A stretch of DNA of 52,632 bases from positions 1-52,632 of the IMG/VR virus record IMGVR_UViG_3300048014_000039. One strand, given 5' to 3'. The DNA comes from a virus. Below are positions 4,913 to 52,500 of this stretch, piece by piece; the first letter of the stretch is position 1; each line of letters starts with the position of its first letter. The translations under genes and the position numbers were made by a program. The notes under the pieces are model-generated. The model did no database searches. It saw only the letters and a program-made list of their open reading frames with translations, and had not been told where the DNA came from.

Positions 4913-5023
4913 CTACCCCCCCGCGGCCTTCGCCTTGTACGCAACGTTCGAAGCCTTTTTGCACGGCCGGCAGTTGCCGCCCGGCGTGAAATCCATGGAT
5001 CCACATTTCCCGCAGGTGCTCAT
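4913..5023 (-). CDS. Small zinc-ribbon protein, 36 residues
   Basis: A short gene whose ATG overlaps the stop of the ParB-like gene (ATGA). The product reads [20 protein letters not shown] and continues CKKASN. The pairs CGKC and CRPC make a four-cysteine zinc ribbon, and the layout 'CxKCGSxDFTPGGNCxxC' is typical of very small phage proteins. Confidence 0.7.
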   Translation of the reverse strand: MSTCGKCGSMDFTPGGNCRPCKKASNVAYKAKAAGG

Positions 5024-6555
5024 TTCTTCCCCTTAGGTTTCTTCTTGGTTTTCGGGATCGTCGCGGCGTTCAAGTTCCGGCGCACCTGCTCGGCGTTGAC
5101 CTTGAAGCGCTTGGCGGCCGCGAAGAGCTTCTCGGGTTTCCGATCGCCCCAGGTCGACACCTGCAGGTCGCTCACAAAGATGCAATCGAACATGAGCTTC
5201 GACATGTCCGTGCCGGAGAGCTTCTTGATGTAGGCCGCCGCGGCCGCGCGATAGTCACCGTTTCCGTATTTCTCCTTCACCGGCTCCCAGCCCCACAGCG
5301 CAAACAGCTGCTTGACCGTCTCCTGCTGCATTTCGTGCACCATTGCCGTCACCAGGTCGTTCCAATCGGCGCGCTCCAAGGCCTTCGGATAGCTCTCGCG
5401 CACCCTGGCGAATAGAGCCTTACGGAACTCGCGCTCGGCCTTGGCTTTCTTCTCGGCCGCGCTCTGCGGGTTCGACGGGGCGCCCGTCTTGACACCAGCG
5501 CTCTTCAGCGCCGCAGCTACGTCCGACTTCTTGGCGAGCTTTAAGACCTTGCCGCTTTCCGGATCCTGCACCAGCGTCGGCTCGTAGTCCTTGCCGAGCA
5601 GCTGCGCGGCGGTCCGATTCTTCGGATCCTCGTACGGCCGACTCTCAAGCTCGACGAACCCTGAATCGTATTTCGCGCGATCATTGCTCACGATCTTCTC
5701 GGCGGGCTTGCCCTGGATCACCTTGGCGCCCTCGGCGGCCAGCCGCGCCGCCGCGGCGTCACGCTTCGCCCGAAAGCAGACGGGGTCTGTGCATACATCT
5801 GCACGCTTGATGTCGCCGAACAGCTCCGGCTGGTTGCCGGTGCGCTTCGGGCACGCGCCGCAGGCGCCGGCGGCCGGCAGCAGCGTCTCATCCTCGGTCT
5901 TGAAGCCCGCATCGTCCAAGCGGCAGGTGTATTCCTGCTGGATGATTTCCTGGGCCTCGCGAAAGGATAGGGGGCTCGCATAATTACTGTTGTGATCGAG
6001 GATGTCCTCGAGCGCCCTTACCTGCAGCGCTTCAACTGGAATGCGCGCGAGCAGCAGTGCGATCGATGCGTTGATCTTGTCCTCGTAAAAAGCCTTGCGC
6101 GCCTTCGGGCTGAGCGCGATCAGCTTCATCCGCGCGTAGATGTAGGCTTTGGACTTTCCGACCTTGTCGGCAATCTCCTCGGCCGAGTGGCCGAGCTTGT
6201 GAAGTGCCTCGTATCCTTCCGCCTCGGCGAGCTCGTGCAGGCCTTCCCGCTGCAGGTTCTCGATCAGCTGGATCTCGAGGACCTGCTCGTCGGTGAGGGC
6301 ACGCACCGAAACATTGATTGCGGTGAGGCCTGCCTTCTGCGCGGCCAGAAACCGCCGTTCGCCGGCGACCACCTCGAAGTGGCCGTTGACCGGCCTCGCG
6401 ACGATGGGTGAGAGCAGTCCCACCGTTTTGATGCTCTCGGCGAGCTCGGCGATCGCGTTCTTGTCGAAGTGCTTGCGGCGCTCGGCCTGGCTGCCGGTGT
6501 TCGAGACCTGCAGCTGCCCGAGCTCGATCGCGCGAAGTCCCTCGGCCGCGCTCAT
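5020..6555 (-). CDS. ParB/RepB/Spo0J-family protein
   Basis: A 511-residue ParB-like protein. The N-terminal ParB/sulfiredoxin-like domain has [21 protein letters not shown] and [19 protein letters not shown]. It is followed by the KorB/ParB HTH ([20 protein letters not shown]). The middle carries a CGACPKR ... CTDPVCF cysteine cluster, and the C-terminus is lysine-rich. No ParA-like gene is visible nearby, so a role in transcription control or DNA handling is as likely as partition. It is preceded by csrA with a 4-bp overlap. It is larger than chromosomal ParB (about 300 residues). Confidence 0.85.
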
Positions 6556-6731
6556 GCGGCAGGCCTCTGCTCGGCAGCTCTCCGCGCCGCGACCTCCTCG
6601 CGGTCGACGACGACGTCTTTTGGTGCAGTGACGCCGATGCGCACCTGGCTGCCCTTAACCCCCAGGACTGTGACCTGGACGTTGTTTCCGATCATGAGCG
6701 TCTCGCCGACGCGGCGCGTGAGAATGAGCAT
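6552..6731 (-). CDS. csrA: CsrA-family RNA-binding regulator
   Basis: A 59-residue protein clearly of the CsrA/RsmA family: [15 protein letters not shown], then [15 protein letters not shown] and DVVVDREEV. CsrA dimers bind GGA motifs in mRNA leaders and repress or activate translation. The start at 6731 follows a strong AGGAGG ribosome site. The frame reaching 6761 is not needed. Finding it in a phage early operon suggests control of host or phage mRNAs during infection. It lies between a HerA-like ATPase and a ParB-like protein. Confidence 0.93.
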
Positions 6732-6757
6732 GGTCCTTCCTCCTTTGAAATGAGTGA

Positions 6758-8464
6758 TCACGGTACGATTTCCGGCGAGATCCGCATCCGGCCGGTATTG
6801 GCGCCGACAAGCACCCCGGCGGTTCGAAGCTCCGAGAGCGCGTTTCTGAACCCGCCCGAGTACTCGTAGCCGGTTGCTTTCGAGAGCTGCTCGGCCGTCA
6901 GCTCATCGCCGCCGGCGAGTTCGGCCAAGATTGCCTTCGCGGCTTTGCCAAACGACGGGTGGTTCAGCCAGTAATCGATGAGCGCCTGACCCTGGGGCAG
7001 CGTCGGGAACGGGCCGTATGTCTCGCCTTCGGGCGTGATGCGCATGACGCCCTCGTTCGGCCCGTCGATGCAGCCGTTGGTGCGCAGCTCCGAGAGCATG
7101 TTGCGAAAGCCGCCGCTGTATCGGTAACCGGTAAGGAGCGTGAGCTTGCCCTTCTCGCAGCCTTCCGGGAATTGCGACAGCACGCCCAGGATCTTCCGGG
7201 CGCCGGCACTCAGTTTGGTGTTGAGCTCGCTCGATACGTGCAGGCCGCTGGACTTGCGCGCAGCTGCCATCATCGGCGGCTCCCGTTGCGGCGGTGTCGC
7301 TGCCGGGCGCGAAGCCGGTTCAGGATCGCTGCGGTCGATTGCTGCGGTGAGCCGCTGAAGCTGCACCATGAATTCGTTGCCGGCCTTCACGACGCCATTC
7401 ACGATGCCGGCGATCGCCGCGGTGGCTGCCTTGTAGCCTTTTTCGAAGGCCTTGTCCTCAAGGCCTCGAATTGCTTCTTCGCTGACAGGTTTGTACTTAC
7501 GACTGCCCGCTTCCTTCTCAAGCTCCGCTATGCGTTTTTTGAGAGTCGCCGGGTCGTTGGCCTTTGCCTCCTCCTCGATCTTGCCCAGCGACGCGCGCAT
7601 GGTGGACACGAAAGAGCCGACATCCACCGCTGCCTTCGCCTTGACCTCGCCATCGCCGCGCATCTGGCGGCGATCCGGATGCAAGGAGTTCTTTTGCGGC
7701 ACCTTGATGAGGATCGGGCGCTCGGTGCCGGCGAGCCAGGCCCAGCATTCGCCGGTGGGCAGCGTCGAGAGGCTGCCGATGATTTCCTTGCCGTCCTTGA
7801 CGTTGCCCACGTCCAGCCATTTGGACAGCGCTGTGAGCGAATTGCGGCCCTTCTGTCGGTGCAGGAACAGGTTGTCGCATAACTCGAGGACGGCCTTGTT
7901 GACCTCCTCGGCGCGCTGGTTGATGAGCGTGTACCCCAAGCGAGAATTGCCGCCCATACGTGCGAGCTTCTCGATCTCGGCGTACACCTGGCCTTGGTCG
8001 GGCCCGACGCGCTGCGGCGCGAACTCAGCCGCCTCCTCGATGAAGACGTGGCGTAGGCCATGCTTGGAGTTCTCGTGCAGCAGCACTCGGACGCATTGCA
8101 TGACGATGCGCTTCCAATCTGCTTTCGACAGATTTATGTCGAAGAGATCGATGACCAGCGAGACGCCGTCGCGCATCGCCGCGCGGACGTACTCCGGAGC
8201 GCTCGCTACAGTCAGCGGCAGATCTCCCGCCTGGCCGCCGGCGACAACGACCGGATAACCGCGGCCGTGACCGGGCACGCGCAGGAATCGCCAGATGCCG
8301 ATGGGATCAAAGGCGATGAACGGAATGCCTGCCTCGAACAGCCTTTCCGCGAGCTCGGTCGCCGTGTAGGTCTTGCCGCTATCGCGAATGCCGAGTACTG
8401 CAGAACCCTGGCTGCCGTAGGCAACCGGATCGATCTTGATGGCGCCGAACTTGAACTCGGTCAT
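6758..8464 (-). CDS. HerA/FtsK-like P-loop ATPase with duplicated winged-helix end
   Basis: A 568-residue protein. Walker A is GIRDSGKT (25-32), and a Walker B-like stretch reads [11 protein letters not shown]. The ATPase domain resembles HerA/VirB4-type motors that move DNA. A lysine/glutamate-rich coiled region follows (about 290-330). The C-terminal 130 residues hold two tandem winged-helix repeats, recognised by [20 protein letters not shown] and [20 protein letters not shown]. The role is unknown. DNA pumping or protection is an inference. Its stop precedes csrA by 26 bp. Confidence 0.8.
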
Positions 8465-9309: not shown

Positions 9310-10605
9310 TTACCTCTTGGATAGCGCTTCACGAAGCCAAGGAAACTCTCGACCGAACCGGGATCGCAGCCGCCAGCTATTGGCGTGCGAGAAATGGCCC
9401 CCGTAGCTTGAGCACACCGATCGCAGCTGCTCGAGGTCTGATCGGTGTGCAACGATGCGGGCGTCACGCACGTGGCGACGCCGCCAGGCGTGCAGCTTCG
9501 TCCGGCAATGTCCGATGACGCGGCGGCGCACCAGCTTGTGCGTCGGGAAAATGACGTAGCCCAGAAAGTCAGCGCCGGCGGTGAGAGGGCGCAGCTTGAC
9601 GTCGGCCTTCAGTTCGAGGCGCAGATCCTCCCGCAGGAAGGTCTCGATCGACGCCTGCCAGGCCTCGAGCTGCTCGCGGCTCCGATGGACCAACACGAAG
9701 TCGTCGACGTATCTCAAAAAGCGCGGGGCGCTCAGCGTGCGCTTGACGAACTGATCCAGTCGATCGAGATACACGTTCGCAAAGAACTGACTCGACAGAT
9801 TGCCGATCGGGATGCCGCAGCCGGCCGGTGCCTGGTCCAGGCGCTTGTGGTTCGGTACGCGAGCCCGCTCCGCCGTCGTGCAGGCGAAAGTAACACCGGC
9901 CTCGAGCGGTGAGCGGCGCAGCAGCGCGTGCACGGTGTGGCGACATTCTACTGGCAGACCGCGGCGCTCCATTCGGGCTTTCAGCATCGCGTAGAGCGTC
10001 GGCCGATGGATGCGGTTGAAGAAGTTCTTGATGTCGAGCTGTAGATAAAATCCGCCACCTTGGCCGCTATCGACCTCCCTCATGAACCCCTGCAGGCGTG
10101 TCACTGCGGCGTGGGTGCCCTTGCCACGGCGGTTCGAGAAGCTGTCGAAGATAAACCCGGGCTCGTAGATCGCCTCGAGCTGCGGCACGATCCAGTGATG
10201 CACGATGCGGTCGGCAAAGTCGGGCGCGTGGATCTCGCGAGCCTTCGGCGCCGTGGCGATAAAGCAGGTGGTGGGTCCGGGCTGCCAGGTGCCGATCGTC
10301 AGTTCGCGCTCAAGGCGCAGCAGCCCGTCGATCCATTGGCTGTCGAAAGATAGTTGATTCGGGCTCGGCTTCTTGCCGCGCCGCGCGCGGCGCCAAGCCG
10401 CGTGGAGGGCGCGAAAGTTCGGAGCAGAATCTTGATACTCACTGGCGCGCACCGCCCGAACAAAGTAGTCGTTGTCCTGGTTGAGCCAGTTGGCGTTGCC
10501 GTTGTCGAAATTGACATTCCAGGCGTAATCGCCAGGCGAATACGCTGTTATCCCGGACACTTGTGACCCAGCCGAGCGGCCAGAGGGGCGGCGCGGCGTT
10601 GTCAT
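9310..10605 (-). CDS. DGR reverse transcriptase (frame begins with the template repeat)
   Basis: A 431-residue frame. Residues from about 63 match DGR-type reverse transcriptases: DIKNFF (191-196) holds the first catalytic Asp, GIPIGNLSSQ (264-273) is the DGR form of motif 4, and YVDD (299-302) is the active site. FLGY and FPTHKL then give the thumb start. It copies template-repeat RNA with adenine errors into cDNA that replaces variable repeats. The ATG at 10605 overlaps the avd stop (ATGA). From this start, residues about 20-54 are the translated template repeat, in frame and without stops. An internal start after the template is possible, for example GTG in VRAS. Confidence 0.93.
   Translation of the reverse strand: MTTPRRPSGRSAGSQVSGITAYSPGDYAWNVNFDNGNANWLNQDNDYFVRAVRASEYQDSAPNFRALHAAWRRARRGKKPSPNQLSFDSQWIDGLLRLERELTIGTWQPGPTTCFIATAPKAREIHAPDFADRIVHHWIVPQLEAIYEPGFIFDSFSNRRGKGTHAAVTRLQGFMREVDSGQGGGFYLQLDIKNFFNRIHRPTLYAMLKARMERRGLPVECRHTVHALLRRSPLEAGVTFACTTAERARVPNHKRLDQAPAGCGIPIGNLSSQFFANVYLDRLDQFVKRTLSAPRFLRYVDDFVLVHRSREQLEAWQASIETFLREDLRLELKADVKLRPLTAGADFLGYVIFPTHKLVRRRVIGHCRTKLHAWRRRHVRDARIVAHRSDLEQLRSVCSSYGGHFSHANSWRLRSRFGREFPWLREALSKR
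10441..10547 (-). repeat. TR: DGR template repeat (TR)
   Basis: This 107-bp segment is the invariant template. It has 24 adenines on the coding strand, mostly in AAC/AAT and GAC codons for Asn and Asp, which gives wide amino-acid choice when A is changed. It aligns without gaps to three variable repeats. Fifty of 52 substitutions fall on these adenines. The 3' side differs from all three variable repeats by one base (plus-strand C at 10440 against G), which would separate IMH* from IMH. Confidence 0.95.
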
Positions 10606-11033
10606 GGATTTGCCTCGGAGGCGTTCCGGGAACTCAGTATCTCAGCGCGCTGCGGGGGAGGCTTATCCGCTCCCGCATTCTGGCTGTCTCGATGCTGCTG
10701 CTTTCGCCACCCTCCACACTGCTTGCCCAGGTCGGAGCACAACCGCGCCAGCATATCGAACTGCGCGAAGCTCACGAATGCTTCAATTTGCTTCCCCAGC
10801 TGCAGGCTGAGCTTCAGATCATCGACCGCCCAAATCAGCTTCGTGGTCCACGTCCCGCGATGCTGATGATCGCGCCAGGCTCGGTGGGCCAGCCGCGCGA
10901 TGCCCATCGCCTGTTCGCGAAGTTGCGTCCCGTGCGTATACTTGTGATACCGCGGGAAGCGGCGAACTGCCTGCTCAATCTCGAGCAAGAGACGTTCCGC
11001 AGCCTTTACGATTGGCGGGAGACTAAAGCTCAT
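10602..11033 (-). CDS. avd: DGR accessory variability protein (Avd)
   Basis: A 143-residue protein matching the Avd four-helix-bundle family: helices beginning IVKAAERLLLEIEQAVRRFP, REQAMGIARLAHRAWRD, WTTKLIWAVDDLKLSLQLGK and FAQFDMLARLCSDLGKQCGG. Avd forms a pentameric barrel that binds the reverse transcriptase and the template RNA. The C-terminal 30 residues are polar and probably disordered. It overlaps the target gene before it (ATGA at 11033/11030) and the RT frame after it (ATGA at 10605/10602), so the three are translationally coupled. Confidence 0.9.
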   Translation of the reverse strand: MSFSLPPIVKAAERLLLEIEQAVRRFPRYHKYTHGTQLREQAMGIARLAHRAWRDHQHRGTWTTKLIWAVDDLKLSLQLGKQIEAFVSFAQFDMLARLCSDLGKQCGGWRKQQHRDSQNAGADKPPPQRAEILSSRNASEANP

Positions 11034-11593
11034 CTAACGTGCCAAAGATCCAATGACTGACTGGCGCGCACCGCCCGAACAAAGCAGCCGTTGTCCCGGC
11101 TGAGCCAGCCGGCGCCGCCGTCGCCGAAACTGACACCCCAGGCGTAACCGCCCGGCGAACTATGAACAGGAGTCGAACTCCAGTAATAGCTCGAATCGCA
11201 CTTGAAGGCGTCCGTGTCGATCGACGGGTCATGTCGCTCATAATCGACCAACGTGAGCAGCTCGCGAATGGTCGGCAGACGCCAATCAGAAAAGCCGCCC
11301 AACGTGAGCTTGGCGCAGGCATCCTTCGCGTTCTTCCAGTTCATCCGGCCGCCTGGGACGTTCTCGCGCGACCAGACGAGCCCGGAAGCGCGGTCGAGCA
11401 CTGCATCGCCCGTGACTTCGAAACGGCCGCCTGGCTCGACGGTCTTGATACCTCCCGGATGCAGCGGCTGCGGCTGCGGTGCGGACGCGTTCCCGTTACA
11501 GAGCACGCTCGCGATCGCGAGTACTTCGCGCGAGCTCGCGGCTTCCAGGCGCTTCGCGATCACCGACTTCAATTCCTGTTCAAGCGTTTCCAT
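11030..11593 (-). CDS. DGR target protein 1 (DUF1566-like, VR1)
   Basis: A 187-residue protein. Residues 1-40 are helical (METLEQELKSVIAKRLEAAS). The DUF1566-type, C-type-lectin-like domain follows, with GLVWSRENV, NAKDACAKL and FSDWRLPTIRELLTLVDY. The C-terminal variable repeat reads GYAWGVSFGDGGAGWLSRDN and then CFVRAVRAS. Twelve extra residues follow the repeat. There is no signal peptide or membrane segment, so a cytoplasmic or virion-borne protein is likely. It is coupled to avd by an ATGA overlap. Confidence 0.88.
   Translation of the reverse strand: METLEQELKSVIAKRLEAASSREVLAIASVLCNGNASAPQPQPLHPGGIKTVEPGGRFEVTGDAVLDRASGLVWSRENVPGGRMNWKNAKDACAKLTLGGFSDWRLPTIRELLTLVDYERHDPSIDTDAFKCDSSYYWSSTPVHSSPGGYAWGVSFGDGGAGWLSRDNGCFVRAVRASQSLDLWHVR
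11060..11159 (-). repeat. VR1: DGR variable repeat VR1
   Basis: Aligned to the template without gaps it has 14 changes at template adenines, every one A to G on the coding strand, and one other change (plus-strand A to C at 11153). It sits at the 3' end of the target gene next to avd. Confidence 0.95.
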
Positions 11594-11614
11594 ATTGGTT
11601 CCCTGCCAAAAGAC

Positions 11615-12031
11615 CTAGTACTGACTGGCGCGCACCGCCCGAACAAAGTAGCCGCCGTCCTGGCCGAGCCAGTAGGCGCTGCCGAAGCCGAAAACGACAA
11701 CCCAGGCGCAAACGCCCGGCGAACACGCTGCTGGGGTGTTGGTCCAGTACCAATCAGAGTGGCAGCGGGGGAAGTAGCTCTTGTCGATCGCCGGCGAGTG
11801 CTTGGTGCGGTCCGCCAGCATGAAGAGCTCATCGACGGTCGGCAGGCGCCAGTCATCGAATCCCGCGACGCGCAGCTCGCCGACCGCTGACTGCGCCTTC
11901 TTCCAGGTCAGTCGCTTGGTCTCCTCGACGCTCCAGATGAGAGATGTCGTGTTGTCCAGCACGGCGACCCATTCGGTGGATTCATCGCTGAGTTTCGCGC
12001 CGTCGGCGCCGACCTTCGTAAATCGATTCAT
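11615..12031 (-). CDS. DGR target protein 2 (DUF1566-like, VR2)
   Basis: A 138-residue protein with a DUF1566/C-type-lectin-like fold: TSLIWSVEETKRLTWKKAQS, FDDWRLPTVDELFMLAD, WYWTNTPAA. The variable C-terminus reads CAWVVVFGFGSAYWLGQDGG and then YFVRAVRASQY, ending right after the repeat. The start at 12031 overlaps the stop of the upstream gene (ATGA). The frame could reach 12073. It lies 21 bp before target 1. No signal peptide is seen. The repeat encodes the likely ligand-binding face by analogy with other DGR targets. Confidence 0.88.
   Translation of the reverse strand: MNRFTKVGADGAKLSDESTEWVAVLDNTTSLIWSVEETKRLTWKKAQSAVGELRVAGFDDWRLPTVDELFMLADRTKHSPAIDKSYFPRCHSDWYWTNTPAACSPGVCAWVVVFGFGSAYWLGQDGGYFVRAVRASQY
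11624..11730 (-). repeat. VR2: DGR variable repeat VR2
   Basis: Gap-free alignment to the template gives 17 adenine-site changes (11 A to G and 6 A to T on the coding strand) and one other change, at the position that also differs in VR1. Confidence 0.95.
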
Positions 12032-12261
12032 GAGCCTGTTTTCCTTTTTCGGTGTTGGTCGCTGTTGGGACACGAAGCGAAATGAGATTTGTGGCGTGAA
12101 CTATCGAACTCAGTGTCGTCAGGCTCGACCGTATCCGCGTCGGTCGGCATGTTTCGGCCGGCCGCGGTCTTGAGCCAGATAATCCGAGCGCGACAGGAGC
12201 TACAGCGAACGACGCGGCGCTCGCTCTTTTCAGTTGTGTCACAGACGTCCTCGAAGCTCAC
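12028..12261 (-). CDS. Zinc-ribbon phage protein
   Basis: A 77-residue protein with VRCSSCRARIIWLKTAAGRN near the middle and HKSHFASCPNSDQHRKRK at the end. This matches a small phage family with an N-terminal CxxC knuckle, an ARIIW strand and a C-terminal HF..CP. It probably binds zinc. The function is unknown. It overlaps the start of DGR target 2 by ATGA, placing it as the cassette's immediate upstream gene. Confidence 0.75.
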   Translation of the reverse strand: MSFEDVCDTTEKSERRVVRCSSCRARIIWLKTAAGRNMPTDADTVEPDDTEFDSSRHKSHFASCPNSDQHRKRKTGS

Positions 12262-12263
12262 GA

Positions 12264-12578
12264 CTAAAACTCCAGGTCATCGCGCTCGTCACCCGAGCCG
12301 TGCCCTATGCTCGGCAACCGCTCCGATTCAAGCAGGTACGCGTAGGGCGGCTTCGTGCTCATCGCGGCCGCCGCCTTGCGTGCGACCTCTTCGCTCGTCA
12401 CATGCAGCGCGTAGATCGCGCTGCTGCCGTAGTAGGCGGTGCGGAACTCATGGGCATTGATCGGGATATCGACGCGCAGCAAATTGCTGCCGGCGATCTG
12501 TTCCTCGGACAGGCGGCCGGCGGCGCGCTGGCGGCCCATCAGCTCGAGGATTCCCCATTGTTCGAATTTATCGGCCAT
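12264..12578 (-). CDS. Conserved phage protein (MAxKFEQW family)
   Basis: A 104-residue protein starting MADKFEQWGILELMGRQRAA with the continuation GRLSEEQIAGSNLLRVDIP. The same layout recurs in many temperate phages next to recombination genes. Its function is unknown. The chosen start at 12578 fits the conserved N-terminus. The frame to 12650 overlaps the exonuclease gene. Confidence 0.75.
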   Translation of the reverse strand: MADKFEQWGILELMGRQRAAGRLSEEQIAGSNLLRVDIPINAHEFRTAYYGSSAIYALHVTSEEVARKAAAAMSTKPPYAYLLESERLPSIGHGSGDERDDLEF

Positions 12579-12583
12579 TGACC

Positions 12584-13285
12584 TCACCCCCTCCCGCCGC
12601 GCAACGCGATCGCCAGGTACGGATCCACATCCGGCTGATTCAGGAGCCAACGCTTGTAATCGCCCGGGATGTCGCCGATGTGGATGCCCTTGTGCTTACC
12701 CCACGGCATGATCGTTGGGACGCGGGCCTTTTCAGAAAGCGCCCAGAGCTCCTCCCAGGTGCCAACCATGGGTCCGTACGCCCTTAAGATCGCCGGGAGA
12801 ACGACCTTCAAGAGGAGCAGAACATCCGTCTCGGCGGAGTGCGCGTTACGCAGCAGCCCGCGGGCGACGTCGCGCCGCTCGTGCAGGTGATAGACCATGG
12901 CCGAGAGCGTGTGCGAATCGATCTGCGGCCAAAGGTTGCGGCAAAGCGCGAGCGTGCAGATGCGCTTCAACTTCGGCTGGCCGATCATCTTCCAGTCAAA
13001 GTCGACATTGTGCCCAATGATGTACGTAACATCGGGCGGCCAGTCGAAGCCGGGGAACGGCGGCAAACCTTCGAGGTCGTCCTCGATGATGTGATGCGCC
13101 GCCATGGCGCCTAACGCGATGGGCTGATCGCCGGGCGAGTAGCGATCGCAGGCGATGTTGACCGGCTTCGCGGCGACCATCAGACCCACAGGCGTGTCAA
13201 TCGGTTGCGAGCGCGCGAACTCGATGACTTTCGCGGTCTCACCGGTTCCCGTCGTTTCGGTGTCCAAGACGATGGCAGCGCTCAT
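12584..13285 (-). CDS. DnaQ-like 3'-5' exonuclease (ExoX type)
   Basis: A 233-residue exonuclease. The DEDD motifs are visible: VLDTETTG (Exo I), IIGHNVDFDW (Exo II), and a C-terminal AHSAETDVLLLL (Exo III). Like ExoX it ends in a DUF3820-type tail (MPWGKHKGIHIGDIPGDYKR). It likely degrades DNA ends in recombination or repair. The start MSAAIVLDTE at 13285 overlaps the ATPase stop by one base (TGATG). It groups with the Sak4-like ATPase and RecE-like nuclease as a recombination module. Confidence 0.87.
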   Translation of the reverse strand: MSAAIVLDTETTGTGETAKVIEFARSQPIDTPVGLMVAAKPVNIACDRYSPGDQPIALGAMAAHHIIEDDLEGLPPFPGFDWPPDVTYIIGHNVDFDWKMIGQPKLKRICTLALCRNLWPQIDSHTLSAMVYHLHERRDVARGLLRNAHSAETDVLLLLKVVLPAILRAYGPMVGTWEELWALSEKARVPTIMPWGKHKGIHIGDIPGDYKRWLLNQPDVDPYLAIALRGGRG

Positions 13286-14397
13286 CACGCGTTCGTCGCA
13301 TGGTCGAGCCACTCGTTCGCGAGCTGGTGCTTAGATGCCGGCAGATCCTCGATCGCGCCGACCTCAAGATTGGCAAGGAACAGGCTTTCGGGAATTCCCT
13401 CGGTATTGAGCCGATCCTTGAGCGCCGTCGCCTGGTCGATCGAGATGCGCGGTTCCAGGCGCCGCTGAGCAGCGTCCGACGCCTCCTTGAGGCGCTGCTT
13501 ATCGGCGCCTGGCTTGAGCGCTTTCCAGAGAGCCGCGCGGCGCTCCTCGAGGGGCTTCAATCCCTCGAAGGCCTCGCACTTGGCGTAGTCCGCGATCAGG
13601 TTATCGATGGTCGGATCGACCTTGACGCCGCCGGCAGCCCATGTCGCCAGTCGCTCGCCGATCGCCTCATCGAACTGCGCCGGCTTCTCTCGATCGAAGA
13701 TGTCGCTGAACTGCGAGGGCAGCTTCATGATCGCGCGCTCACTCTCCATGCCGGAGTTCCAAACCGGGCGCCCTTCGGAGCCGGGAAGCAGGAGCGCCTG
13801 GAGCACCATCTCGTACATGAATTCGTCGCCGCAGATCGGCTGCCAGCCGAGCGGCTTAGGGTCCTTGCCTGGGACGACTTTAATCTTCTCTTTGGCGCGG
13901 AACGTCATAATCAGGTTGACGTTCAGCTGCAGCAGCTCGTTGATCAGCCGGCGACGCGCGGTCTTCGGCGGTCCCCACGCGGCCATGCCGGTCTTCTCGA
14001 CCGTGGATTTCCACTTGACGGCGAGCTCCGCCGCGAGCTTCTCATGCCATTCGAGGACGCCGCCGGGGCCTTCGTGCTCGTGGCTCATGGAGTCGATGAT
14101 GATGGTCTTCGATCCTCGTCGCGCGCAAAAGCGCACAGCCTCGAGGTAGTCATCGGGCGAGAAGGGCGCACCAAAGCGCAGGTGATTGAACTTGAACTTG
14201 TCGGCGTAGTAGAGCGCGCGGCCGTTTTCGGTATCGATGAAGTCAATCTCGCCACCGCAGATCCGCTGAATGCCGGTCGCGAGGCGCAGCGCCGAATAAG
14301 TTTTGCCACTCGAAGATGGGCCGACTAGGCCGATTAGGAGGCCGACCGCTTTGCGGACGGCGTGCGCGATCTCAAACTGTCGTACTTGTGCATTCAT
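13285..14397 (-). CDS. P-loop ATPase, Sak4-like recombination protein
   Basis: A 370-residue protein. Walker A is GLVGPSSSGKTYSALRL (about 24-40), and the Walker B region is SKTIIIDSMSHEHEGPGG. It resembles the AAA/RecA-like phage nucleotide-binding proteins called Sak4, which assist single-strand annealing. The C-terminal 100 residues are helical. Neighbouring exonucleases on both sides support a role in phage homologous recombination. The gene follows the RecE-like gene by 24 bp, with GGAGGGA upstream. Confidence 0.8.
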   Translation of the reverse strand: MNAQVRQFEIAHAVRKAVGLLIGLVGPSSSGKTYSALRLATGIQRICGGEIDFIDTENGRALYYADKFKFNHLRFGAPFSPDDYLEAVRFCARRGSKTIIIDSMSHEHEGPGGVLEWHEKLAAELAVKWKSTVEKTGMAAWGPPKTARRRLINELLQLNVNLIMTFRAKEKIKVVPGKDPKPLGWQPICGDEFMYEMVLQALLLPGSEGRPVWNSGMESERAIMKLPSQFSDIFDREKPAQFDEAIGERLATWAAGGVKVDPTIDNLIADYAKCEAFEGLKPLEERRAALWKALKPGADKQRLKEASDAAQRRLEPRISIDQATALKDRLNTEGIPESLFLANLEVGAIEDLPASKHQLANEWLDHATNA

Positions 14398-14421
14398 GAA
14401 TGAATCCCTCCGAAAAATGAC

Positions 14422-15294
14422 TTACGCGTATTCCTCGTCCGGCAACTCTTGCGACAGGACCCAGGCCGGCGGCGACAGCGTGATCGCGCCGTCCGCATAG
14501 CCGGGCCAGGGGAAACTGCCTTCTGTCATGAGTCGATCCCACTCGAAGAGCGCCTTGTTCCACCGGCGTTTGCCAATCTCGCGGTGAGCGCCGTCCAGAC
14601 GCGCGCCGACCACTTCGTATGGCGGCTCGATCTCGCAGAACAGGAACACGTAGTCCGTGCGGCCGAGCGCCTCAGGTTTCAGCTGCTCATATGCCGTGGT
14701 ATACGCGTGATCCTGGATGTCGTAGCCGTACTCGACGATCTTCTTCGCTAAATCAGACGGATGGGCGGAAGCGACCTTCTTGAGGTCGTACAGCCGGTGA
14801 TCTGGCGCGATCATGTCGATGCGGCAACGGCACAGAACCTCGCGTTCGCGATTTCGCTGATCGGCGAAGTCCGTAAATTCGATCGCGACTTCCGGGTGGC
14901 CCTGAAGTGGAAACCCCTGGTCCGCCGCATTCTTGAAAATGCGCTCGGCCGCTTTGTTGAGTTTCTCGAACTGGTGCGCAAGGATCGGAATCTTGCGCGC
15001 CTCGAGGATGGCCTCTTTTGCTTCGCGAGCCGCTTTCGTGCGCCAGTCGTCCGCGACGACCATCTCGAAGGCGGCGCCGGCGCCCAGGAGGAGCTTATGC
15101 AGGATCGAGCCTTCATCCATCGCTCGCGTGCTGACACGTGCGCGGTTGGCGCCGCCTAAGCGCGGGTGCTCAAGCCACGCGTGCCGCGGCGACTGCGTGA
15201 TGAGTGTATGCGCGATCGAGTGCGATAGGGACGGTGACGGACACGGGTCGGCGTGATATTCGTCCTCGGTCACACTGAGAATTCGTGCTGCCAT
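14422..15294 (-). CDS. PD-(D/E)XK exonuclease, RecE/exo VIII type
   Basis: A 290-residue protein of the RecE-like, PDDEXK family. The N-terminus has the family entry SPSLSHSIAHTLITQSPRHA. The region RIDMIAPDHRLYDLKKVASA contains the catalytic Asp and the DxK element, followed by the QxxxY motif-like IQDHAYTTAYEQ. The enzyme would resect double-stranded DNA ends to give 3' single strands for annealing. It is the first gene of the recombination module. Confidence 0.85.
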   Translation of the reverse strand: MAARILSVTEDEYHADPCPSPSLSHSIAHTLITQSPRHAWLEHPRLGGANRARVSTRAMDEGSILHKLLLGAGAAFEMVVADDWRTKAAREAKEAILEARKIPILAHQFEKLNKAAERIFKNAADQGFPLQGHPEVAIEFTDFADQRNREREVLCRCRIDMIAPDHRLYDLKKVASAHPSDLAKKIVEYGYDIQDHAYTTAYEQLKPEALGRTDYVFLFCEIEPPYEVVGARLDGAHREIGKRRWNKALFEWDRLMTEGSFPWPGYADGAITLSPPAWVLSQELPDEEYA

Positions 15295-15321
15295 CCTGAG
15301 CGCCTCCTCTGCGGGTGCGGA

Positions 15322-15528
15322 TTATTTGAAATCGCGCCGCGAATACGGCGCGTGGAATTGCTTCGTCGTCCAGGCGCTATCGAGTTTCGAATTCGCGATC
15401 CGTCTGGCGTTCCGCATGTGTTCGTCGTACAGATGCCAGAACAGCGACCAGCACACCCAACCCAAAAACGCGATGCTGATGAAGAGCGAACCGACTATGA
15501 ACAGGATTTTGAAGGTGAAAAAGCTCAC
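15322..15528 (-). CDS. Small membrane protein
   Basis: A 68-residue protein with one long hydrophobic segment (residues 7-32, ILFIVGSLFISIAFLGWVCW) and a charged C-terminal tail. It likely spans the inner membrane once. Function unknown. Its ATG overlaps the upstream stop (ATGA). Confidence 0.6.
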   Translation of the reverse strand: MSFFTFKILFIVGSLFISIAFLGWVCWSLFWHLYDEHMRNARRIANSKLDSAWTTKQFHAPYSRRDFK

Positions 15529-15806
15529 AGGAACTCGCTTGGACGTCTCACCGCCCGCAATGTTTGAAGTGGCGCTTCACCATCGACAACCACGACCGGC
15601 TCGTGCATTACCAACTGCATTTCAAGGAGTTTTTGTCCGATCCGATGCTCTGGCAGTGAGGGGTGAATTACGCGCAGCAAAATGGCGTCCGGCCAGCGCG
15701 GATCGATCGAGACGCTGTGTATACAGGCGTCCGTCGGCAAGCACAGTATTTCCTTGAGTCTCGGGAGGGCGATCGGTACCAGCGCCGCCCGGGGGGTCTC
15801 GCTCAT
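15525..15806 (-). CDS. Hypothetical phage protein
   Basis: A 93-residue protein (MSETPRAALVPIALPRLKEI) with predicted strands and helices and no recognised motif. It is linked by 4-bp overlaps on both sides (15806/15803 and 15528/15525). Confidence 0.6.
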   Translation of the reverse strand: MSETPRAALVPIALPRLKEILCLPTDACIHSVSIDPRWPDAILLRVIHPSLPEHRIGQKLLEMQLVMHEPVVVVDGEAPLQTLRAVRRPSEFL

Positions 15807-16078
15807 GACTTCACCAATTGCATTAGCTTGCGCGAGCGGATCAGCAGCGCGTCAAGATTCTCGAGGAGATCGTCGGGAAAGAGCGGCCGCGCCACCTCGA
15901 GCATCGAGACGCAGCCCTCCGCGATCGCGTACAAGCCCTCGATCTGTGTCTGCTTGACGTCGATGGTCGCTTGCCCGGCTTCGATGATGCGTTCCAGCCG
16001 GATGATGCTGCTGGAGGCGGCGAGCAGCTTCTCGAGCGTGCTTGCGTAGCGTGTGTTGATGTCCGCGATGGCGTTCAT
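15803..16078 (-). CDS. Hypothetical helical protein
   Basis: A 91-residue protein beginning MNAIADINTRYASTLEKLLA, almost entirely helical with heptad-like spacing. The start at 16078 overlaps the upstream stop (ATGA). The frame to 16354 is a run-through of the neighbour. Function unknown. Confidence 0.6.
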   Translation of the reverse strand: MNAIADINTRYASTLEKLLAASSSIIRLERIIEAGQATIDVKQTQIEGLYAIAEGCVSMLEVARPLFPDDLLENLDALLIRSRKLMQLVKS

Positions 16079-16347
16079 AGCACGCCCTCCAACGGCGGAT
16101 CCGGCAGGCCGTGATAAGCGATCAGCCCATCGCGCAACGCGATCGACGAGATGCCGTACCCGCAGTCCGAATATTTTTGGATATTTCCGTGAGTAACGAT
16201 CACCCATTCGTAACAGGCGTCGCTGGGCTGGCCGACGAGCAGCAGCTCTGATTCCATGTCGATGTCGATCGTCATGAGAACCCTTGAATCGGCCGTGTAC
16301 TTGAAGCGCGGCAGGTTCACGAACGATGCTGCGTTGGCTGCGTTCAC
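16075..16347 (-). CDS. Hypothetical phage protein
   Basis: A 90-residue protein with a strand-rich middle (SRVLMTIDIDMESELLLVGQ, YEWVIVTHGNIQKYSDCGYG). No recognised family. It overlaps both neighbours by ATGA junctions. Confidence 0.6.
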   Translation of the reverse strand: MNAANAASFVNLPRFKYTADSRVLMTIDIDMESELLLVGQPSDACYEWVIVTHGNIQKYSDCGYGISSIALRDGLIAYHGLPDPPLEGVL

Positions 16348-16553
16348 GCGGCACCTCGAATCGCGATGGCCGCTGCTGCTCGAATACCGTCGATCAGCGC
16401 CTGTTGCTCACGTTCCGCGCGGTGGTCCGCGTGCCAGCGCGCGCGCACGTCGTCGTGTTCGGCTTGGTGCGCTGCGCAGAAGCGAACCCACTCGTGACCC
16501 TGTTGATTCGTTCCCGATTGGCAGCCGCAAATCTCGCGTGTTTTCTTGCTCAT
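16344..16553 (-). CDS. Small His/Cys-containing protein
   Basis: A 69-residue protein starting MSKKTREICGCQSGTNQQGH. It has CGC, and CAAHQAEHDDVRARWHADH, which could bind metal, followed by an alanine-rich helix. The ATG overlaps the stop of DGR target 3 (ATGA), so the two are coupled. Confidence 0.6.
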   Translation of the reverse strand: MSKKTREICGCQSGTNQQGHEWVRFCAAHQAEHDDVRARWHADHRAEREQQALIDGIRAAAAIAIRGAA

Positions 16554-17014
16554 CCGGAATGCCCAATGGCCAATGACTGACTGGCGCGCACCGCCCGAAC
16601 AAAGCAGTCGCCGCCCTGGCCGAGCCAGCCGGCGAAGCCGAGAGCGAAACCGACAAACCAGGCGCAAACGCCAGGCGAATACGCTGCTGCGACTCCGGTC
16701 CAATACCAGTCCGACTTGCAATTCGGAAAGGCGGTGGTGTCGATCGCCGGATTGCACCTGCAATAGTCGACCAGCGCGACGAGCTCAGCCACGGTGGGTA
16801 ATCTCCAGTCATCGAACCCGGCGGCGCGCAGCTGTTCGCAGTGTGTTTTGGCAGCGCTCCAAGTCATCCGTGCGGTCTCTCCGGCATCCCACATCAGCCC
16901 GGTCGTGTTATCCACTACGGCAACGTGAGCGCCGCGTGTGGCTTGGCCTTTCGCATTCAGCTTTGTGAAGCGAACCTGCGTACGAGCGCTTCGCTTTTGC
17001 CGGGCGCTGCTCAT
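16550..17014 (-). CDS. DGR target protein 3 (DUF1566-like, VR3), remote from the cassette
   Basis: A 154-residue protein with the DUF1566 pattern TTGLMWDAGETARMTWSAAK, FDDWRLPTVAELVALVDY, SDWYWTG. The C-terminal repeat reads CAWFVGFALGFAGWLGQGGD and then CFVRAVRAS, with nine residues after it. It resembles target 2 more than target 1 in the constant part (FDDWRLPTV). It lies about 4.5 kb upstream of the cassette on the same operon strand, and is the third gene from PL. No signal peptide is visible. Confidence 0.88.
   Translation of the reverse strand: MSSARQKRSARTQVRFTKLNAKGQATRGAHVAVVDNTTGLMWDAGETARMTWSAAKTHCEQLRAAGFDDWRLPTVAELVALVDYCRCNPAIDTTAFPNCKSDWYWTGVAAAYSPGVCAWFVGFALGFAGWLGQGGDCFVRAVRASQSLAIGHSG
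16580..16686 (-). repeat. VR3: DGR variable repeat VR3
   Basis: Gap-free alignment to the template gives 19 changes, all at template adenines (11 A to G, 7 A to T, 1 A to C on the coding strand). It is the cleanest and most diverged of the three repeats and the farthest from the RT. Confidence 0.95.
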
Positions 17015-17404: not shown

Positions 17405-17911
17405 CTATCGCAAATTGCCAACCAAACTTCCTTCGTCGAGGTTGTCCGTGACCCCTTCAAATGCTACGTCGCCCCATTTTAGGACCCATGTAGCGTCAAT
17501 TTTCTCGAATTTTGCGCCGAAGCGGTTCTGTATTGGCGAGCGCTTCAGAGACGCTGGCTTCCCGTACATGCTGATGAGCTCCTTGAGCAGCTCGTCTTGC
17601 ACCTCGATGCCCTTCGTTTCGGAAACCACAGCGATGATTTTGCCGGTCGCGTCTACGCTGACGAAGGGCGCCGTGAGAGCCCAATGCGGAAACTCCGGTT
17701 GGTATGTGAGAACGTACTGATCACCCAGCTTCAAACCGACGCAGATCTTGTCCGCGGATTCCGGCGCGTCGCAGCTAGGATACGAGGATAGTTGCCTGCC
17801 GAGCACGATTCCAGCCACGGCCGGAAACTCGCCCGGCTTGAATGGCTCATTCGCAAGCGACGCCGCGCCGATCAACTGCGAGAGTGCAAACCCAATGATG
17901 GTCTTTTTCAT
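17405..17911 (-). CDS. Secreted/periplasmic protein, lysogeny-expressed moron candidate
   Basis: A 168-residue protein with a typical signal peptide (MKKTIIGFALSQLIGAASLA, cut before NEPF). The mature part has two cysteines and strands such as YVLTYQPEF, but no recognised domain. The gene lies 51 bp after the repressor on the same strand, before the PL operators, with AGGGAGAGG as ribosome site. It should therefore be transcribed with the repressor in the lysogen, the usual position of a lysogenic-conversion gene. Its effect on the host is unknown. Confidence 0.75.
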   Translation of the reverse strand: MKKTIIGFALSQLIGAASLANEPFKPGEFPAVAGIVLGRQLSSYPSCDAPESADKICVGLKLGDQYVLTYQPEFPHWALTAPFVSVDATGKIIAVVSETKGIEVQDELLKELISMYGKPASLKRSPIQNRFGAKFEKIDATWVLKWGDVAFEGVTDNLDEGSLVGNLR

Positions 17912-52453: not shown

Positions 52454-52500
52454 ATTCATAACGCCGGGGTCGAGGGTTCGATTCCCTCCTTCACCACCAA
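52454..52500 (+). other. attR: attR, right attachment site (truncated tRNA-Met 3' half)
   Basis: Exact 47-bp repeat of 81-127. It holds only the tRNA part from the anticodon loop to CCA, so it is the displaced host half and not a working tRNA. Confidence 0.95.

Follow-up and report, generated by a model that had tools for sequence, protein, structure and literature searches.

The whole of the 52,632-nt IMG/VR record IMGVR_UViG_3300048014_000039 (the window) was analysed, and on its minus strand we find a diversity-generating retroelement (DGR) in which one reverse transcriptase (RT), one accessory protein (Avd) and one template repeat (TR) serve three small proteins of the C-type lectin fold. 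The interpretation that we consider probable as a whole is that this cassette is functional and forms a portable module in the early arm of temperate phages infecting Xanthomonadales-type hosts, that its template RNA is structured, and that the lectins it diversifies act as binders outside the virion. Whereas phage DGRs are the textbook tail-fibre switchers, the widespread family described here diversifies two to four small proteins encoded away from virion genes. The combination of an apparently early, multi-target, tail-independent cassette with a dual-coding, covarying template RNA is what sets this DGR apart. The position of the TR within the RT frame, the structured dual-coding template RNA and the large Xanthomonadales prophage family go beyond what a first-pass annotation of the window had reported.

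A diversity-generating retroelement with three lectin-fold targets

In itself the cassette is a real and ordinary DGR, composed of the following features, including three variable repeats (VR1 to VR3) and motifs resembling the initiation of mutagenic homing (IMH) element.

9310–10605, minus strand: DGR RT coding sequence, 431 aa; its ATG at 10605 overlaps the Avd stop (ATGA)
10602–11033, minus strand: Avd accessory protein; its ATG overlaps the target 1 stop
11030–11593, minus strand: target 1, 187 aa, N-terminal helices and a C-type lectin (Lcl_C) domain
11615–12073, minus strand: target 2, Lcl_C, 152 aa, or 138 aa from the ATG at 12031
16550–17014, minus strand: target 3, Lcl_C, 154 aa, about 4.5 kb away on the repressor side
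10441–10541, minus strand: TR core (full match to 10549), inside the RT coding sequence and in the same frame as the targets
10431–10440, minus strand: TR 3' flank (IMH*-like), GAGTATCAAG, which pairs with the leader RNA described below
11060–11160, minus strand: VR1
11624–11724, minus strand: VR2
16580–16680, minus strand: VR3
11042–11059, minus strand: IMH-like motif 3' of VR1, CAGTCATTGGATCTTTGG
11606–11623, minus strand: IMH-like motif 3' of VR2, CAGTACTAGGTCTTTTGG
16562–16579, minus strand: IMH-like motif 3' of VR3, CAGTCATTGGCCATTGGG

The RT matched RVT_1 (E 3e-16), and its family profile matched the structures of the BPP-1 DGR RT (8ub7–8ube, E 1.4e-51), identifying it as a DGR-type enzyme; the motifs YVDD and IGNLSSQ (GxxxSSQ) are invariant in the family RT alignment. 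Avd was recognized by phrog_3206 (E 1.1e-20), with further matches to NF033474 (E 1e-10) and bAvd that fell under the curated cut-offs. All three targets matched Lcl_C (DUF1566) above the cut-off, with E-values from 3e-28 to 2e-32, and the predicted model shows a C-type lectin fold with the VR at its C-terminus, for which Foldseek returned the C-terminal domain of the secreted Legionella Lcl (Lcl-CTD, 8q4e) as the nearest solved structure. Within the record, Lcl_C matched these three proteins and the TR itself and nothing else, and the VR 3' motif CAGTMATTGGNCTTTTGG, allowing ≤3 mismatches, occurred three times, always at a VR end (reversed control, 0). Because Lcl_C is absent elsewhere in the record and the post-VR sequence is found exactly three times, the trio is complete; across the whole record neither search revealed a fourth target or another TR in the late genes. 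A tblastn search of target 2 against isolated phages gave no match.

Comparison of the 101-nt core of the repeats revealed the adenine specificity expected of a DGR. Mismatches between TR and VR fall at template adenines in 15/16 cases for VR1, 17/18 for VR2 and 19/20 for VR3, or 51/54 in total (hypergeometric p from 2e-11 to 1e-15), and the flanks of the TR do not match those of the VRs. Since the mismatches are adenine-specific and the flanks unlike, simple duplication, with or without subsequent drift, is ruled out as the origin of the repeats. These results bear out the first-pass annotation, which had assigned a single RT, Avd and TR to three DUF1566-like targets and had located the three VRs correctly to within a few bases. 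All 15 adenine changes in VR1 are A to G, whereas VR2 and VR3 contain G, T and C at such positions, a bias that is unexplained.

The 3' boundary of the repeats is directional, as seen among relatives of the RT; 579 of these were matched in viral contigs, and 80 of the 579 entered the analysis. After the common repeat the TR continues with GAGT in 88/92 locus-boundary calls, while the VR continues with CAG in 181/184 and then enters a conserved stretch of the AATTGG..TTTTGG type, in which the stop codon lies. TR and VR thus differ in their 3' element in the manner of IMH* and IMH.

Distribution of the cassette and the role of its targets

The RTs of the family are 57–81% identical, and close relatives were found in prophages of Dokdonella, Stenotrophomonas, Arenimonas, Rhodanobacter, Dyella, Xanthomonas, Lysobacter and Pseudoxanthomonas. 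An adenine-specific TR/VR scan was positive in nearly all loci scanned, with one to four VRs per locus, all on the RT strand. In three pairs of related loci (L064/L080, L028/L032 and L071/L078) the VRs differ at 12–21 of 100 positions and the TRs at 0 of 100, with flanks about 7–9% apart. Since the VRs diverge more than their flanks while the TRs are identical, retrohoming appears to have worked recently in the family; this is natural-history evidence from relatives of the phage studied here.

The window holds a complete integrated prophage of ~52.4 kb, since a 47-bp attL/attR repeat of the tRNA-Met 3' end (81–127 and 52454–52500) brackets positions 81–52500; the repeat adjoins the integrase. 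The leftward arm encodes a helix-turn-helix regulator, target 3, exonuclease VIII, an AAA ATPase, a DnaQ-like exonuclease, targets 2 and 1, Avd, the RT, a HerA-like ATPase, CsrA, ParB and the integrase, and the rightward genes encode head and tail. All three targets therefore lie in the recombination and integration arm and not within a late tail module, as an Mtd-like tail-fibre DGR would. The same holds for the family: across 43 related whole phage records every Lcl_C gene is close to the RT, and the terminase is on the strand opposite the Lcl_C targets in all 25 records in which one was detectable. The first-pass annotation had placed the cassette in the leftward early operon of a prophage, with no repeat signature in the late tail frames. 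The prophage, the leftward arm and the repeat-free tail frames, the last also in the 43 related records, hold; the word "early" is an inference from gene content, orientation and synteny, and a sigma-70 consensus scan for promoter-like sites returned 0 sites and was uninformative on expression timing.

Conservation of the cassette is not matched by the virion genes. The record's tail protein has a relative in only 7/43 records, and the terminase relatives are only 25–34% identical. Because RTs that are 57–81% identical accompany a tail protein common to so few records, the cassette as judged from its gene neighbourhoods is not tied to one virion type. The recombination and HerA genes are rarely shared, and the shared unit is therefore targets–Avd–RT. 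As a separate observation, a single leftward run at 5020–8464 encodes a ParB-like protein, a CsrA homologue and the HerA-like ATPase, an unusual combination for a temperate phage.

Throughout the family the targets are single C-type lectin domains, about 120–240 aa long (median 146) and in some cases extended by a short N-terminal stretch. The three targets of the record show no visible signal peptide, as had been noted earlier, and none of 94 family targets has a convincing signal peptide, lipobox or membrane segment. We found no defence or effector domain fused to the targets, nor any effector or sensor domain besides the lectin domain, and no conserved partner gene beside them across the family loci. 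Taken together with their genomic position, these features suggest that the diversified lectins are most likely soluble non-virion binders rather than tail fibres. Our leading guess is that they bind inside the cell or in association with the lysogen, where partners could include host defence proteins, competing phages or host surface molecules. Phages may thus use targeted hypermutation for other ends, namely defence, counter-defence or competition inside the lysogen, and the family supplies a concrete gene set with which this can be tested.

An alternative is that the targets are minor receptor-binding lectins of the virion that are produced from the early arm and attach to the tail as Mtd does in BPP-1, though from genes located elsewhere. 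A C-type lectin fold lacking a signal peptide would suit a virion protein, the BFVD matches include several long S74-peptidase or tail-fibre proteins, and most viral DGR targets are tail proteins (PMC8144416). However, in every record where this could be tested the late genes are on the other strand from the targets, the same cassette occurs in phages with unrelated tails, and the targets are single small domains with variable short N-termini that share no docking domain and adjoin no conserved partner gene. We therefore regard a place in the virion as unlikely, though it deserves to be weighed.

Export is less probable still. The targets could serve as adhesins or surface lectins outside the lysogen, released non-classically or by lysis in a form of lysogenic conversion, given that the nearest solved fold belongs to the secreted Lcl and that cellular DGR targets are mostly surface proteins (PMC8144416). 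The absence of any signal peptide, lipobox or membrane segment among the 94 targets makes this poorly credible. A gene at 17405–17911 that does carry an apparent signal peptide, and has no family match, adjoins target 3 directly downstream of the putative regulator, which fits a surface role. Sites beside the phage regulator are a common position of lysogenic-conversion genes.

The template repeat inside the RT gene and its leader RNA

The TR lies in the RT reading frame, which is open through the leader, the TR and the RT. An open frame is by itself insufficient to prove translation across the TR, since the BPP-1 sequence is likewise open at this place and yet its RT begins further downstream, and we rejected it as sole proof; our case is built instead on the overlap of start and stop codons, the conserved frame and the constraint on codons. 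In 89/89 relatives scored, the start codon of the RT and the stop codon of avd overlap (ATGA, twice GTGA). Among loci with a clear lectin frame, on which all our target-frame statements rest, the TR phase equals the target frame in most. In L038 and L094 the RT frame reads the TR in another phase than the targets, and is still stop-free. RT residues 1–57 are those encoded by leader and TR; AlphaFold gives them pLDDT <50 (predicted disordered), with order from about residue 58. In a maximum-likelihood tree the sampled RT family forms one clade (100/100), and its neighbours have the TR outside the RT.

Conservation of synonymous codons is 1.3- to 2.3-fold the expected level in the final 32 codons of avd and in RT codons 1–60. 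The constraint ends about 15–20 nt past the TR and drops to about 0.9–1.2 across most of the remaining RT gene. This region corresponds to a covarying RNA of ~270 nt in which pairing between the leader and the TR 3' flank is predicted to close the TR into a loop.

10551–10722, minus strand: template-leader RNA (model R1), overlapping the avd 3' end and the RT 5' end
10636–10641, minus strand: leader strand of long-range pairing LR1, GAUACU, pairing with AGUAUC at 10434–10439
10690–10695, minus strand: leader strand of LR2, pairing more weakly with 10427–10432
10601–10604, minus strand: start-codon helix, UGAC of the RT start and Avd stop, pairing with 10564–10567

The leader fold comprises 29 pairs, with compensatory changes in 23. 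Its covariation score is 0.503, compared to 0.166 in a shuffled control, which preserves column make-up but not relatedness, and ≤0.115 in a slid control, which preserves relatedness. LR1 (leader GA(N)ACU, flank AGU(N)UC) is paired in 99.4% of cases and shows 30 double-change cells, where shuffling gave at most 14, and one of its pairs occurs as C-G, U-G, A-U and U-A; LR2 is paired in 83.3%, with 40 double-change cells against a shuffled maximum of 21.

The R1 covariance model has a single match in the record and also matches upstream of the TR in more distant DGRs, where the TR flank pairs with the leader in different letters (9 bp in L105, 8 bp in L106, 6 bp in L102). Such R1-like RNAs occur in L105, L102, L111, L112 and other distant proteobacterial DGRs in which the TR does not lie within the RT gene, and several of these loci also have a VR downstream of the RT. 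The leader RNA had no Rfam match in the record at gathering or relaxed threshold; RF03022, the BPP-1-type RNA between TR and RT, gave none even at relaxed threshold, with BPP-1 matching as a control. RT-15 (RF03018) was absent at its curated score from the record and from relatives L064, L028, L027 and L006, and was matched in Pseudomonas phages. In early-region Pseudomonas phage DGRs it sits between avd and TR (L166, 5648–5840; L167, 5661–5837), the same place as R1, and the two RNAs may be distant homologues. Leader/TR-flank pairing in Pseudomonas phages (9 bp in Cruim01) could be due to chance and is not claimed.

The conserved structure might instead serve only translational coupling of Avd and RT, as the RT start codon sits within it. 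We consider this improbable, since coupling has no need of LR1 and LR2, the helices that span the TR and connect the leader with the TR 3' flank, and R1 also matches just upstream of the TR in DGR loci where the TR is outside the RT frame.

A template function leads to the following model. The target 1–Avd–RT transcript would be produced together with the leftward arm, its avd/RT junction would fold, and the leader would pair with the TR 3' flank (GAUACU/AGUAUC), looping the TR and holding its 3' end beside the 5' domain. In BPP-1 a structured spacer 3' of the TR recruits the enzyme (PMC12875486); we infer that the 5' RNA domain has assumed this role here, the pairing bringing the 3' flank to it. 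The RT–Avd complex would then bind, and its copying of the TR would be error-prone at adenines; the resulting cDNA would replace the VR of any gene ending in the IMH-like motif CAGT.ATTGG..TTTTGG. The TR should be unable to overwrite itself because its flank reads GAGT, not CAGT, and because the leader pairing depends on that flank; that the VR version cannot so pair offers a simple reason why the TR would be donor only. The position of the RT start codon within a helix suggests a switch by which the RNA would probably serve either for translation of the RT or as template. The most specific version of our interpretation, an antibody-like intracellular repertoire of lectin-fold binders, carried by a temperate phage and diversified by a DGR whose template RNA is folded from Avd and RT coding sequences, with enzyme-making and template use mutually exclusive because the RT start codon is part of the fold, is put forward tentatively.

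Although the evidence for activity comes from relatives and VR1 shows A to G changes only, an inactive DGR with decaying repeats is a highly improbable reading, given that the RT is open with invariant catalytic motifs, the template RNA is under strong constraint, and between relatives the TR is identical while the VRs change rapidly.

Several points weigh against our interpretation. The best-studied phage DGR targets are tail proteins, and phage virion proteins also lack signal peptides, so the missing signal peptide does not exclude a place in the virion. The recombination genes (exonuclease) and the HerA-like ATPase are mostly not shared among relatives either, and because other early genes are thus also mostly unshared, independence from tail type is explicable by phage mosaicism alone. 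The boundary rule has rare exceptions (4/92 TR and 3/184 VR calls), and the RNA mechanism is drawn from comparative evidence only.

Comparison with known systems

DGRs acting on non-tail proteins have been described in the conflict systems of multicellular bacteria (PMC10907252); the present cassette differs in that its targets have the lectin domain but no domain of effector or sensor type. The DGR of Stenotrophomonas sp. SKA14, reported as an example of multiple VRs with two TRs, six VRs and DUF1566 targets, is similar by its description in having a Xanthomonadales host and several DUF1566 targets per RT (PMC6642488).

Closer in organization are the Pseudomonas phages VB_PaD_phPA-G (Detrevirus) and Cruim01, which have two Lcl_C-like targets, Avd, an RT and a structured RNA upstream of the TR. 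The cassette lies in the repressor-to-integrase arm of phPA-G and in the recombination-gene arm of Cruim01, and phPA-G, an isolated P. aeruginosa phage, has the same order of CI repressor, two Lcl_C-like targets, Avd, RT, exonuclease, xis and int. Both differ in that their RT is about 37% identical, its start does not overlap the avd stop, and their RNA is RT-15, which R1 does not match.

TRs are mostly intergenic according to Roux et al. (PMC8144416). The topology seen here is nevertheless already known, because overlap of the TR with the end of the RT ORF is listed as layout group 3 in the 2012 DiGReF survey (PMC3521204). In the parts of that survey that bear on this layout, topology is a layout class of annotated ORFs, with separate TR and RT transcripts inferred; for one clade, the present data show that start and stop are coupled, that the sequence is under dual-coding constraint and that the RNA covaries, and what is new is the functional reading of the topology.

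The BPP-1 DGR (mtd-avd-TR-brt) resembles the cassette in its temperate phage, its target–Avd–TR–RT order, adenine mutagenesis, a C-type lectin target and a homologous RT. It has one tail-protein target where the present phage has three small ones; its TR is intergenic, the RT beginning after the 3' spacer Sp (RF03022) (PMC12875486), where here the TR is inside the RT coding sequence; and its structured RNA is 3' of the TR, whereas ours is 5' and does not match RF03022. Pairing between leader and TR flank is a testable account of how the priming site may be held without the BPP-1 3' spacer, and it would explain both the fixed one-base difference between TR and VR ends and a possible tie of template use to RT translation.

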